From Hyphomicrobiaceae bacterium (GTDB lineage Bacteria > Pseudomonadota > Alphaproteobacteria > Rhizobiales > Hyphomicrobiaceae), in NCBI GenBank assembly GCA_022844275.1, contig JALHMB010000002.1, positions 682,001 to 746,000 on the forward strand: a stretch of 64,000 bases of DNA, in the 5' to 3' direction. A program made the translations under genes and the position numbers. Every line of letters begins with the position of its first letter. Within the stretch, counting starts at the first letter, position 1. Positions 43,528 through 48,367 of the stretch are shown here, piece after piece. Below the pieces are notes generated by a model. The model made no database searches and was not told the origin of the DNA. It saw nothing but the letters and a program-made list of their open reading frames with translations.

Positions 43528-43627
43528 CGTACTGACCGCGATGCGCCGTACTCGCGAACTTCCGGCTTGACCCGGCCCCTGCGGCATCCCTCATGAAACT
43601 GGCGTTCCAACAACGACGAGGTGAGTC

Positions 43628-44707
43628 GTGAACGCTACCGCCAAACTCCTGAATGCCTCCGAGGCTGCAGCGCAACTCGGCATCTCCGCAAAAGCACTCC
43701 GTATCTACGAAGAGCGCGGCCTTCTTGCGCCGGCGCGTACGGCCGCTGGTTGGCGCGCGTACGATAACACGCACATGACGCGTGCCGCAGAAATCGTCGC
43801 GCTGCGCGCGCTGGGCCTCAGCCTCGGTGAAATCGGGAAGGTGCTCAGCGGCGATGCCGGCGTGCTGCCGCGCGCCCTTGCCGATCACGAAGCGACACTC
43901 GAAACGCGCCTTCGCGAGTTGATGGCGACGGTCGATAAAGTCCGGCGCCTCCGCGCAGATCTCATGCACGGCAAGCGTCCGATCATTTCAGAAATCGCCG
44001 CCGCCGTGCGCCCGCACCCACCTCTCGGTATCGCCTTCGATTTGCCATGGCCATGGGGCGGCGAAGCTTTCGCGCTTCATGACATCAAAGCCATCAACTT
44101 CATCGTGGGACCGCTCGGCAGCGGCAAGACCCGCCTCGCGATGCGGATTGCGGAGGCGCTACCCAATGGGCATTTCATCGGGCTGGAACGATTTGCGGAG
44201 AAGGGTGCAGCCGCGGCGCGCATCCGTGACGGCGATCCTGCGTTGGGCTCACGCGTCGAGGAGGCCTTGGCCACCATCATCGAGGCCGGCGGCACCAGGT
44301 CCGATGCCCTGCTCGCGTCGTTGACCGCGCTCGAGGCGCAGCCAATCGCAAACATCGTGATCGATACGCCTGAGCAAGGGCTTGATGGGGCAACGCAGGA
44401 GGCCCTCATGAGCTACCTGCGGCGGCGCGCTTCCAAGGGCGGTGTGATCTTCCTGGTCGCGCGCTCGGATGCCATGCTTGATCTGGAGTGCGCACGCATC
44501 GACGAGGCGATCATTCTCTGCCCCGCAAACCACAGTCCGCCCTTCCTGGTCGCGCCCTATCCCGGTTCGCCTGGTTACGAAGCCGTCGCAACCTGTCTGG
44601 CTTCGCCGGAAGTGCGCGCAAGAACGGAAGGCGTCATCGCGTGGCGGCCGGCGACATCATTGGTCGATGCCGCCGCGATTGCCCGCAGCGTTCGCGAAGG
44701 GCGATGA
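43628..44707 (+). CDS. MerR-type HTH fused to a C-terminal P-loop ATPase-like domain
   Basis: N-term SEAAAQLGISAKALRIYEERGLLAPARTAAGWRAYD; C-term Walker A FIVGPLGSGKTRLA and Walker B-like NIVIDTPEQGLDGATQEAL. Confidence 0.85.
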   Translation: MNATAKLLNASEAAAQLGISAKALRIYEERGLLAPARTAAGWRAYDNTHMTRAAEIVALRALGLSLGEIGKVLSGDAGVLPRALADHEATLETRLRELMATVDKVRRLRADLMHGKRPIISEIAAAVRPHPPLGIAFDLPWPWGGEAFALHDIKAINFIVGPLGSGKTRLAMRIAEALPNGHFIGLERFAEKGAAAARIRDGDPALGSRVEEALATIIEAGGTRSDALLASLTALEAQPIANIVIDTPEQGLDGATQEALMSYLRRRASKGGVIFLVARSDAMLDLECARIDEAIILCPANHSPPFLVAPYPGSPGYEAVATCLASPEVRARTEGVIAWRPATSLVDAAAIARSVREGR

Positions 44708-45793
44708 TTACCTCTCGGCACGCTTCTCGCGACTGCCCTTGTCGGTCGCGGCCGCCGTGCCCCAGCCGAGGATCTGGCTGAGCTTGCGCTCGCGCTCGGT
44801 ATCGACGCTGACCGTCGCCGTCATGCCGGCGCGCAGGGGCAGGTCCGTTCCGTTTGCCTCGATGCGCACGCGCACGGGAAGCCGCTGCACGACCTTGACC
44901 CAGTTGCCCGAGGCGTTCTGCGGCGGCAGGAGCGCGAATTCCGCTCCCGTCGCGGGGCTGATGCTCTCGACGCGCGCCTTCCAGGTCACGTCCGGGTAGA
45001 TGTCCAGGATCACCGTCGCCCTCATGCCGGGACGCACGTGCGTCAGCTCGGTCTCTTTGAAGTTTGCTTCGACCCAAGGCTCGGTATCGCTGACGATCGC
45101 GAACAGCGGCGTCGCGGCGCGGATCTGCTCGCCGGGCAGGAGCTTTGCGTTGACGACGCGACCGCTCACCGGCGCCACGATGCGCGTGCGTTCAAGCTCG
45201 AGGCGGGCACGGTCGCGCTGGGCCAGCATCTCGCGCACCATGGCGTGCTCTTCGGTCAGCTTCTCGGGGTTGCCGCCGAGCTGGGTCAGAATGCGCGTGA
45301 TCTTCTGCTCGATGACACTCACGCGGGCGCGAGCCACCGTGAGATTGCTCTCGGCCTCTTCGGCGCGGAAGGCAAAGCCGACACCCTTGTCGCTCAGCTG
45401 TTTCTGGCGACTGTGCTGTGCCTCGAAGAAGGCAATCCGGCTCTTGGCCTCGGCGAGCTCCATCCGCGCTTCGGCATACTCGGCGCGGAAGCCCGCGACG
45501 CGCGAGCGCGTCTGGTCGAGCTCGGCCTCAGCCTTGGCAAGCGCGATGGCATAGGACTCGGGATCGACGGTCAGAAGAACGTCACCGGCCTTGACCTGCT
45601 GATGCTCGCGCACACGCACGTCGATGATGCGCCCCGGCACCTCGGAGGAAACCTGGACGATATCGGCCTTGACGTAGGCATTCTCCGTCGAAACGAAGCG
45701 GCCGCTCCACAGCCACCACAGGCCAGCGCCACCGACGAGGAGCAAGGGGACCAACACGAGCAGAATGGGGCGAGTCAGACGCTTGGCTGTCAT
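44708..45793 (-). CDS. HlyD/EmrA-type membrane fusion (periplasmic adaptor) protein
   Basis: N-terminal TM, FVSTENAYVKADIVQVSSEVPGRIIDVRVREHQQVKAGDVLLTVD, barrel-sandwich and coiled-coil. Confidence 0.95.
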   Translation of the reverse strand: MTAKRLTRPILLVLVPLLLVGGAGLWWLWSGRFVSTENAYVKADIVQVSSEVPGRIIDVRVREHQQVKAGDVLLTVDPESYAIALAKAEAELDQTRSRVAGFRAEYAEARMELAEAKSRIAFFEAQHSRQKQLSDKGVGFAFRAEEAESNLTVARARVSVIEQKITRILTQLGGNPEKLTEEHAMVREMLAQRDRARLELERTRIVAPVSGRVVNAKLLPGEQIRAATPLFAIVSDTEPWVEANFKETELTHVRPGMRATVILDIYPDVTWKARVESISPATGAEFALLPPQNASGNWVKVVQRLPVRVRIEANGTDLPLRAGMTATVSVDTERERKLSQILGWGTAAATDKGSREKRAER

Positions 45794-46314
45794 GGTCTTA
45801 CCACTCGTGTTGAGGCCGCGACGTCGTCGTCGGCGTCCTCGATGCCATCAATTTCGGAAGAATCTGCGCGCGGGTCGGAGGCTGCGAGCATTGTAAGCTG
45901 CGCCTTCACCTTGCCCATCAATGCAACCAGTCTCGCCTGCTCGGCCGGCGTCAGACCCGCCAAGGCATCGCGGACAGTTGTATCAGCGAGCGGCGCAATT
46001 GCGGCGTGTACCCGCGCACCGAGTTCGGTCAGGTAGATGCGGTTGACCCGGCGATCGCTTGGCTCGGGGCGCCGCTCGACCCAGTTCTTTTCCTCGAGCC
46101 GGTCGACGATCCGCCCCGCCGGCGCCTTCTCGATCTCCATCATGTCGGCGAGTTCGGACTGGCTCACGCCGGGACGCCGGTGGATGCGGGTCAGGGCCAG
46201 CCATTGCGCACGCGTCAGCCCCACCTCCCGCACCCGGCGCGCGAAGACGGTGCGCAGCAGACGGGCGGTATCCGCTGTCAGCCAGCCGAATTGCAGATGG
46301 TCCCTATCGGGCAC
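45790..46314 (-). CDS. MarR family transcriptional regulator
   Basis: VGLTRAQWLALTRIHRRPGVSQSELADMMEIEKAPAGRIVDRLEEKNWVERRPEPSDRRVNRIYLTE; GTG start; 4-nt overlap with hlyD-like gene. Confidence 0.93.
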   Translation of the reverse strand: MPDRDHLQFGWLTADTARLLRTVFARRVREVGLTRAQWLALTRIHRRPGVSQSELADMMEIEKAPAGRIVDRLEEKNWVERRPEPSDRRVNRIYLTELGARVHAAIAPLADTTVRDALAGLTPAEQARLVALMGKVKAQLTMLAASDPRADSSEIDGIEDADDDVAASTRVVRP

Positions 46315-46335
46315 TTGGCGCTGCCTCCCCACGCA

Positions 46336-46358
46336 ATAATAGTAATTGCAGTTATTAT
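46336..46358. promoter_or_regulatory. Candidate MarR operator
   Basis: AT-rich inverted repeat ataata-gtaattgcagt-tattat, 21 nt upstream of the marR GTG. Confidence 0.45.
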
Positions 46359-46524
46359 CACCCGGGTCACGGTCGTCAAGACGAGGACAGAACATATGAG
46401 CAATGCAGACGCTGCCGGCATCCGTCGAAGTCGACACGCCCCCCACGGAACCAGAGCTTGTCGCTGCCATATGGCAACGCAATGAGTTAGTGTTTACCCA
46501 ACGCAAAACCAGAGGAGACGCCCA

Positions 46525-47709
46525 ATGGCCGATGCCGTCATCGTTTCGACTGCCCGCACCCCGATCGGGCGGGCCTACCGCGGCGCCTTCAACAATATCC
46601 ACGGAGCGAGCCTCGGCGGGCACGTCGTGGCAGAGGCCGTAAAGCGTGCCGGCGTGGCGCCCGACGACATCTCCGACGTGATGATGGGCTGCGCCATGCC
46701 CGAGGGCGCGACCGGCGGCAACATCGCGCGCCAGATCGCCATCCGCGCGGGACTGCCCGTCTCGGTCGCCGGCGTGACAGTCAACCGCTTCTGCTCGTCG
46801 GGCCTCCAGACGATTGCCATGGCTGCCCAGCGCGTGCGCTCGGATGATGCCGGCATCATCGTCGCGGGCGGTCTCGAATCCATCAGCCTCGTGCAGAACG
46901 AGAATTCCAACAAGTTCCGCACCCGCGACGAATGGATCGTCGAGCACAAGCCCGAACTCTACTGGTCTATGATCCAGACGGCCGATAACGTGGCCAAGCG
47001 CTATGGCATCAGCCGCGAGGCCCAGGACGAGTATGCCCTCGAGAGCCAGCGCCGCACGGCCGCCGCCCAACAGGCCGGCAAGTTCAACGCCGAGATCGTG
47101 CCACTGGCGGCGGAGAAAATCATCTACGATAAGGAAGGCAAGGCTGTCGCCACGGAGATGGTCACGCTGACTCGCGACGAGGGCAACCGGCCCGATACCA
47201 ACATGGAAGGTCTCGCCAAGCTCAAGCCTGTCATGGGCGAAGGCAACTTCATCACGGCTGGCAATGCGAGCCAGCTTTCCGATGGCGCCTCTGCCACCGT
47301 CGTCATGAGCGACAAGGAAGCGCAGAAGCGCGGGTTGAAGCCGCTCGGCATCTACCGCGGTTTCGAAGTTGTCGGCTGCGAACCTGACGAAATGGGTATT
47401 GGACCCGTGTTCGCAGTGCCGAAGCTTCTCAAGAAGCATGGTCTCAAGGTCGAGGACATCGGCATCTGGGAGCTCAACGAGGCCTTCGCGGTGCAGGTCA
47501 TCTACTGCCGCGACAAGCTCGGCATTCCCTGGGAGCGCCTCAACGTGGATGGTGGCGCCGTCTCGATCGGACATCCCTACGGCATGAGCGGCGCGCGGCT
47601 GACGGGACACGCGCTCATCGAAGGCAAACGCCGCGGTGAAAAGTATGCCGTCGTGACCATGTGTATCGGCGGCGGCCAGGGCGCGGCCGGTCTCTTCGAG
47701 ATCGTCTGA
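46525..47709 (+). CDS. Thiolase (acetyl-CoA C-acyltransferase)
   Basis: [19 protein letters not shown]...[19 protein letters not shown]...[20 protein letters not shown]...[13 protein letters not shown]. Confidence 0.97.
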
Positions 47710-47722
47710 GGCGGGGCGACCA

Positions 47723-48367
47723 ATGTCTCTCACCACGCCCGGCTACCTGCATCGCGGACTCGATGAGCTCTTCCGCATGGCGCGCGAGGATCCGCTGACG
47801 CCGCGATGTACGCGCTTCTTCTTCGTGCGCCACGGCGAGACGGACGGCAATCACGCGCGCATCTTCCAGACTGCCGAGCAGCCACTCAATGCGCGCGGAC
47901 TTGCCCAGGCAGAGGCCGCGTCCGAGGTCCTCAAGGGCGAGCGGATCGAGCGCATTGTCTCGAGCACGATGCCGCGCGCGTGGGTCACTGCCGAGATGGT
48001 CGGGCGGCCGCACAGCGTTGCGCCCGAACCCGATGATGGCCTGCGCGAGCGCTGGTTCGGCGACCTTGTCGGCACGTCCTCGGCCGATCATGACTGGCGG
48101 GACGCGCCGCCGAATGGCGAGGCGCTCGATTTCTTCGTGCGGCGCGCGCGTCAGGGCATCGAGCGTGGGCTCAACCTTGCCGATACCAAGCATTCGACGC
48201 TGGTGGCGCATGGCGGCATTCTGTATGTGCTCGGACCGGCGCTAGGCATCGATCTCGAGACGCACCACCTTGCCAACGCGACGCCGCTCCTCTTCGAGCG
48301 CACCGGAACGAAGTGGCGTGCGCGCCGCCTCGCCGATATCGGCGCGGACAGCGACAACGTCTCCTGA
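47723..48367 (+). CDS. Histidine phosphatase family protein
   Basis: RFFFVRHGETDGNHARIFQTAEQPLNARGLAQA. Confidence 0.94.
   Translation: MSLTTPGYLHRGLDELFRMAREDPLTPRCTRFFFVRHGETDGNHARIFQTAEQPLNARGLAQAEAASEVLKGERIERIVSSTMPRAWVTAEMVGRPHSVAPEPDDGLRERWFGDLVGTSSADHDWRDAPPNGEALDFFVRRARQGIERGLNLADTKHSTLVAHGGILYVLGPALGIDLETHHLANATPLLFERTGTKWRARRLADIGADSDNVS

Follow-up and report, generated by a model that had tools for sequence, protein, structure and literature searches.

The fusion gene and its distribution

The window, a stretch of 64,000 nucleotides from the 6.1 Mb genome of a Hyphomicrobiaceae bacterium, contains at positions 43628-44707 of the forward strand a single intact open reading frame with a GTG start codon. 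It encodes a protein of 359 amino acids, in which a MerR helix-turn-helix (HTH) domain and a predicted coiled coil are followed by a P-loop domain of about 215 residues. The following features lie at its 5' end or cover the whole gene:

43618-43624, forward strand: ribosome-binding site GAGGTGA, before the GTG start and recurrent in relatives
43628-44707, forward strand: gene for the MerR-ABC-like NTPase fusion, 359 aa, from the open reading frame and full-length relatives
43655-43969, forward strand: MerR winged-HTH DNA-binding domain and predicted dimerisation helix, residues 10-114, from Pfam, the CueR structures and the helix of the AlphaFold2 model

An earlier note had described the N-terminus as a canonical MerR HTH, and this was borne out. 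The N-terminal half matched the Pfam families MerR_1 (3.5e-16) and MerR (7.9e-11), both above the cut-offs, and among the curated MerR models CueR ranked first and ZntR next for the DNA-binding half. CueR structures could be aligned to residues 6-110. The AlphaFold2 monomer model places a single long helix (residues 80-113) after the HTH, which is a candidate for the dimerisation coiled coil.

The fusion of a MerR and a P-loop domain, also claimed in the earlier note, is genuine and widespread, with full-length relatives in many alpha- and betaproteobacteria. A chance fusion is excluded because the whole two-domain reading frame is conserved across both classes at 45-70% identity. Among 60 related genomes, 10 encode the full-length protein (the own genome included, the nine others at 46-70% identity), and 48 have a match at E <= 0.001, mostly via the MerR half alone. 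The closest named relative is from Hyphomicrobium (70% identity). In a scan of one genome per species, covering 84,980 species, 374 pattern stretches proved to be relatives, a number in which one gene may count twice owing to the use of two patterns. The 80 loci kept from the scan were all from alpha- and betaproteobacteria.

The spread is patchy. The gene was found in 6 of 289 genomes of a class-wide sample, and three full-length copies were present among 399 genomes across the phylum, the own genome being counted in both cases. In a tree of 96 rows, the betaproteobacterial rows require three changes and thus do not form one clade, which makes a transfer of the gene between the classes likely, albeit not proven. 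Full-length relatives also occur in seven plasmid records, on large replicons of Variovorax, Burkholderia, and Caballeronia. Plasmid cargo was discarded as a functional clue, as the annotated replicons of these genera had no cargo in common. No phage-borne relatives of the fusion were found. The fusion appears to be uncharacterised: neither a MerR-NTPase fusion nor a MerR protein with an NTPase effector was described in the libraries and open papers searched.

A divergent ABC-like P-loop domain

Conservation of the C-terminal half was quantified with an alignment of 96 family rows. Five segments stand out:

44036-44065, forward strand: family block FDLPWPWGGE at the start of the C-terminal domain, residues 137-146; L139, P140, P142, W143, and E146 invariant (96/96)
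44108-44134, forward strand: Walker A GPLGSGKTR, residues 161-169; G161, L163, G166, K167, and T168 invariant (96/96)
44354-44386, forward strand: Walker B and D-loop-like IVIDTPEQGLD, residues 243-253; position 247, that of the catalytic Glu, not Glu; E249 invariant
44459-44479, forward strand: ARSDAML, residues 278-284; R279-S280 invariant (96/96) at the H-loop position, not His
44516-44632, forward strand: family-specific block LCPANHSPP...CLASPEVRARTEG, residues 297-335; C298, P299, N301, P305, C323, R330, and R332 invariant, H302 in 95/96; also present in the short members L203 and L205

The two nucleotide-binding motifs named in the earlier note could thus be confirmed, Walker A at residues 161-168 and the Walker B-like motif with D246, E249, and L252 invariant and D253 in 91 of 96 rows. 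The stretch LRRRASKGGVIFLVARSDAML, which the note had flagged after Walker B, is the next helix-strand pair and ends in the invariant R279 and S280. The consensus of the family-specific invariant block is CPANHxxP...CLxxPxVRxRT. Further residues invariant in the 96 rows are R188, G221, Q257, L284, V308, G313, G316, E318, L324, and A338, and position 187 is acidic in 94 rows.

The AlphaFold2 model, built with 46 sequences, has a mean pLDDT of 80 and a pTM of 0.74. It comprises an alpha/beta core with strands at residues 156-160, 181-184, 242-246, 274-277, and 293-297; residues 324-345 form a tail that is conserved and yet modelled with low confidence. In Foldseek searches with the full chain as well as with the C-terminal domain alone, nucleotide-binding domains of ABC proteins (CbiO, EcfA, FtsE, CcmA, BtuD) were at the top. 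For the C-terminal domain alone, the best match was CbiO (5x40, E 2.5e-5); the ABC chains had E-values from 2.5e-5 to 1e-3 at modest TM-scores of 0.33-0.49.

Profile searches did not yield a family. Neither Pfam nor NCBIfam has a family that covers the C-terminal domain. In the Pfam scan nothing in this half was above the cut-off, and the sub-threshold matches were generic P-loop families. ABC families were absent from the Pfam matches shown and from those above the cut-off, and the NCBIfam ABC matches were far below it. Three other assignments were dropped. Weak matches to methyltransferases in the PDB search did not extend beyond the P-loop region of the profile, PADLOC matches to defence systems were weak and concerned generic HTH and ATPase pieces, and a search for stand-alone relatives of the domain in the 60 related genomes returned as strong matches only the fusions themselves and as weak ones P-loop noise.

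The resemblance to an ABC/SMC-type ATPase core, proposed in the earlier note, therefore holds in part. The fold comparison points to ABC-type nucleotide-binding domains and the Walker motifs are kept, but the ABC catalytic core is incomplete. In ABC ATPases, the Walker B Asp is immediately followed by the catalytic Glu. In the family, this position (247) is occupied by Met in 82 rows, Leu in 7, Thr and Val in 3 each, and Tyr in one. The place of the LSGGQ signature is taken by the consensus EDGATxS with one invariant Gly, and the H-loop His is absent. In L203 and L205 the helical/signature segment, about residues 190-225, is missing, while Walker A, D246, E249, R279-S280, CPANH, and C323 are still present. 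Because of these absences the domain is best called ABC-like and not a member of the ABC family, and for the same reasons ordinary hydrolysis and an ABC-type sandwich dimer appear doubtful. As naturally shortened members, L203 and L205 could serve structural studies as minimal forms of the domain.

That Gly-Lys-Thr and Asp are strictly conserved speaks for nucleotide binding by the P-loop domain, and that the catalytic residues of ABC proteins are lost speaks against ordinary hydrolysis, although the acidic residue 187 or E249 could stand in for the absent Glu. The nucleotide may act as a signal or as a cofactor, or it may be a vestige. A pseudo-ATPase would be a different reading of the same alignment: the nucleotide chemistry would be lost, the domain would purely bind or sequester a ligand in the manner of TipA or AlbA, and the P-loop would be structural or bind a phosphorylated ligand. 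The absent Glu, signature, and His would fit, as would the fact that the strongest conserved blocks (LPWPW, CPANHxxP, CLxxPxVRxRT) are specific for the family and not generic for NTPases, and that the same slot holds TipAS or DUF3471 in sister proteins. Nevertheless, none of the 96 rows deviates at Gly-Lys-Thr or at the Walker B Asp, and Walker A is kept even in the members that lack the helical segment; both observations favour a domain that still binds Mg-nucleotide. We regard this reading as rather improbable.

A predicted self-promoter of a solitary gene

The earlier note had named positions 43528-43627 as a candidate target region, and this region indeed holds a predicted MerR-type operator in what would be the regulator's own promoter:

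43566-43597, forward strand: predicted MerR-type self-promoter, common to the upstream regions of 94 family genes; 24 of 32 consensus matches in the window

In the window the element reads CTTGACC CGGCCCCTGCGGCATCCCT CATGAA. The -35 box TTGACC (43567-43572) and the -10-like CATGAA (43592-43597) are separated by a 19-bp spacer with the imperfect dyad CGGCCCCTGCGGCAT. The 32-base consensus of the 94 family genes is TTGACCCGGCCCCTGGGGCCGCCCCGATAAGG, with the -35 box TTGACC, the 19-bp spacer with palindrome CGGCCCCTGGGGCCGCCCC, and the -10 box GATAAG. The right arm and the -10 box of the window element are degenerate, and this weakening is common to the closest Hyphomicrobium. MerR-family regulators bind palindromes in promoter spacers of 19-20 bp (PMC1526738), and the layout of the family element is the known geometry of MerR promoters (PMC1526738, PMC9909328).

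The element is located about 60 bp before the start codon, and 92 of the 94 sites lie at 57-65 bp. The sites score 20-32 of 32 against the consensus, compared with 13-21 for shuffled regions. Column information reaches 2 bits within the element and is mostly below 0.3 bit upstream of it; apart from the element, the upstream regions of the relatives look unrelated. In the 5' leader, 35-45 bp after TTGAC, a stretch resembling GCGGTCAGCAA recurs in the family, and its GGTCA mirrors the TGACC of the -35 box.

The second target candidate of the earlier note, the sseA-ridA unit, was not upheld: the operator is oriented towards the gene of the regulator itself, and conservation of the sseA-ridA neighbours ends with the closest Hyphomicrobium relative. 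More generally, the upstream gene is on the same strand in 45 loci and on the opposite strand in 32, and the downstream gene in 40 and 39, respectively. Common neighbours were restricted to close relatives (by eye, a LysR-like gene in Bradyrhizobium and an OsmC-like gene in Mesorhizobium), and an assignment of function from operons or neighbours was therefore abandoned. As the neighbours are not conserved and their orientation is mixed, the predicted promoter and the gene were taken as a self-contained unit, and the fusion gene appears to be a solo gene with its own promoter and predicted autoregulation. In the window, positions 44708-47736 of the reverse strand encode a MarR-like regulator and an EmrA/HlyD-like periplasmic adaptor, convergent to the fusion gene; the stop codon of the adaptor abuts that of the fusion gene, and no EmrB-like pump gene follows the adaptor.

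Additional operator sites were searched with a degenerate 25-base pattern, allowing up to two mismatches. A site was found at the family gene in 9 of the 10 family genomes among the relatives (in the tenth, G052, it is degenerate). The other matches were one site before a gene with the DNA-binding domain only (G043), one extra site in one of the family genomes (G003), and five sites in genomes without a family gene. In the class-wide sample, 5 of 6 family genomes had a strict site, versus 10 matches in the 283 others. When up to three mismatches were allowed in 12 genomes, 12 extra sites were obtained, all of them within long open frames, among which were secD-like and gamma-glutamyltransferase-like genes. 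They were rejected as a regulon, and no other close intergenic site was present in these 12 genomes.

These results bear on the idea that the self-promoter serves only for feedback and that the physiological targets are distant genes with diverged operators. It is common for MerR regulators to act on a gene or operon other than their own, and the window's own operator has already diverged (24 of 32), so that other sites could have done so as well. However, the three-mismatch searches of 12 genomes uncovered no other site outside long open frames, no neighbour is conserved, and the orientation of the neighbours is mixed. A regulator of distant genes thus seems unlikely.

A search with the DNA-binding half alone led to proteins with E-values of 1e-20 to 1e-30 and differing C-terminal halves. 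Nineteen of the proteins read carry the ABC-like domain, and the self-promoter precedes every one of them (22-30 of 32). The C-terminal domain is TipAS in L185 (Pfam, 1.1e-11) and DUF3471 in L182 (Pfam, 5.1e-12), and it is missing in L193 and L223. Most of the sisters with TipAS, DUF3471, or no C-terminal domain have a CTTGA self-promoter at a similar distance, CTTGACC/CTTGAGCC in those with TipAS or DUF3471; upstream of L182 the variant element CTTGAGCCGGACC...GGTCATAG is found. By eye, L181, L213, and L232 also have TipAS-looking domains; L181, L185, and L213 have a self-promoter of the CTTGACC type and L232 a weak one. L012, L182, L183, L210, L211, L220, and L221 have a DUF3471-type domain (confirmed with Pfam for L182) and an upstream element of their own, CTTGAGCCGGACC...GGTCATAGC, about 50-90 bp before the start, with L012 as a variant. 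This element is a second self-promoter specificity. Because TipAS or DUF3471 takes this place in sisters that share the DNA-binding domain and have similar self-promoters, the NTPase-like domain is seen to fill the sensor/effector slot of a TipA-style MerR chassis with predicted autoregulation.

A proposed self-activating switch and its relation to known systems

The fusion, the conserved P-loop, the predicted self-promoter, the lack of other close intergenic operators in the genomes searched, and the swapped effectors of the sisters are read from the sequence; autoactivation by spacer distortion, nucleotide binding, a ligand, and an output are what we infer. The reading we prefer, with a probability of roughly 0.55, is a solitary self-activating one-component switch in which the P-loop domain is the sensor and probably also the output. 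A MerR dimer would sit on the over-long 19-bp spacer upstream of its own gene. The C-terminal domain would receive the signal, most likely by binding a nucleotide and, at the CPANHxxP...C block, a small molecule or a metal, and the signal would switch the dimer so that the promoter, held silent before, is twisted into its active form. The switch may be thrown by ATP, as the earlier note had thought plausible, or by a different ligand. Such effector-dependent activation by DNA distortion, as in the MerR family, would lead the cell to make more of the same fusion protein. Since the genomes searched yielded no second operator, the C-terminal domain probably serves as the output as well as the sensor; it may bind, sequester, or process the ligand like proteins of the TipA/AlbA type, with the ABC-like fold in place of the TipAS pocket.

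That the MerR domain is gated by a metal or redox site made up of the invariant C298 and C323 (96/96) and H302 (95/96), with the P-loop domain as a scaffold, is quite unlikely: the closest curated DNA-binding domains are indeed those of the metal sensors CueR and ZntR, but this likeness is limited to the DNA-binding half, no metal-transport neighbour is conserved, and the segment adjoins a low-confidence stretch of the model.

Beyond the switch itself, we tentatively propose, at somewhat less than an even chance, a previously undescribed MerR class that uses a divergent ABC-like NTPase as sensor and effector. The twist of the own promoter would be set by the state of the nucleotide, or by a ligand whose loading depends on nucleotide, and the result would be a one-gene self-amplifying response module across alpha- and betaproteobacteria.

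The MerR effector domains covered by a review are metal or redox loops and larger drug-binding domains (PMC9909328). The present family, with several hundred sequence matches and a near-invariant self-promoter, has a P-loop domain in this slot. Its sisters with TipAS, DUF3471, or no domain point to a MerR chassis with predicted autoregulation in which the sensor domain is exchanged, which may be a route to further ligand-binding domains.

Three known systems are closest. The TipA class (TipA, SkgA, AlbA) shares the combination of a MerR domain and a large C-terminal domain, and the literature presents its members as autoregulated resistance systems of a minimal kind (PMC7762955); L185, a sister that shares the DNA-binding domain and has a comparable self-promoter, carries the Pfam domain TipAS. 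In contrast, the window protein has no match to TipAS (PF07739) at E <= 1, and its C-terminal domain combines a P-loop, an ABC-like fold, and a family-specific tail. The metal sensors CueR and ZntR have the most similar DNA-binding domains in the curated models and likewise have a palindrome in a 19-bp promoter spacer, but the fusion lacks their short C-terminal metal loop, and its operator belongs to its own gene and not to that of an adjacent transporter. The ATPase domains of ABC proteins (CbiO, FtsE, EcfA, CcmA, BtuD) are the best fold matches and share Walker A, the Walker B Asp, and mostly the GLD of the D-loop, whereas the fusion is devoid of their catalytic Glu, LSGGQ, and H-loop His, has no ABC match in the Pfam scans, and is joined to a DNA-binding domain.
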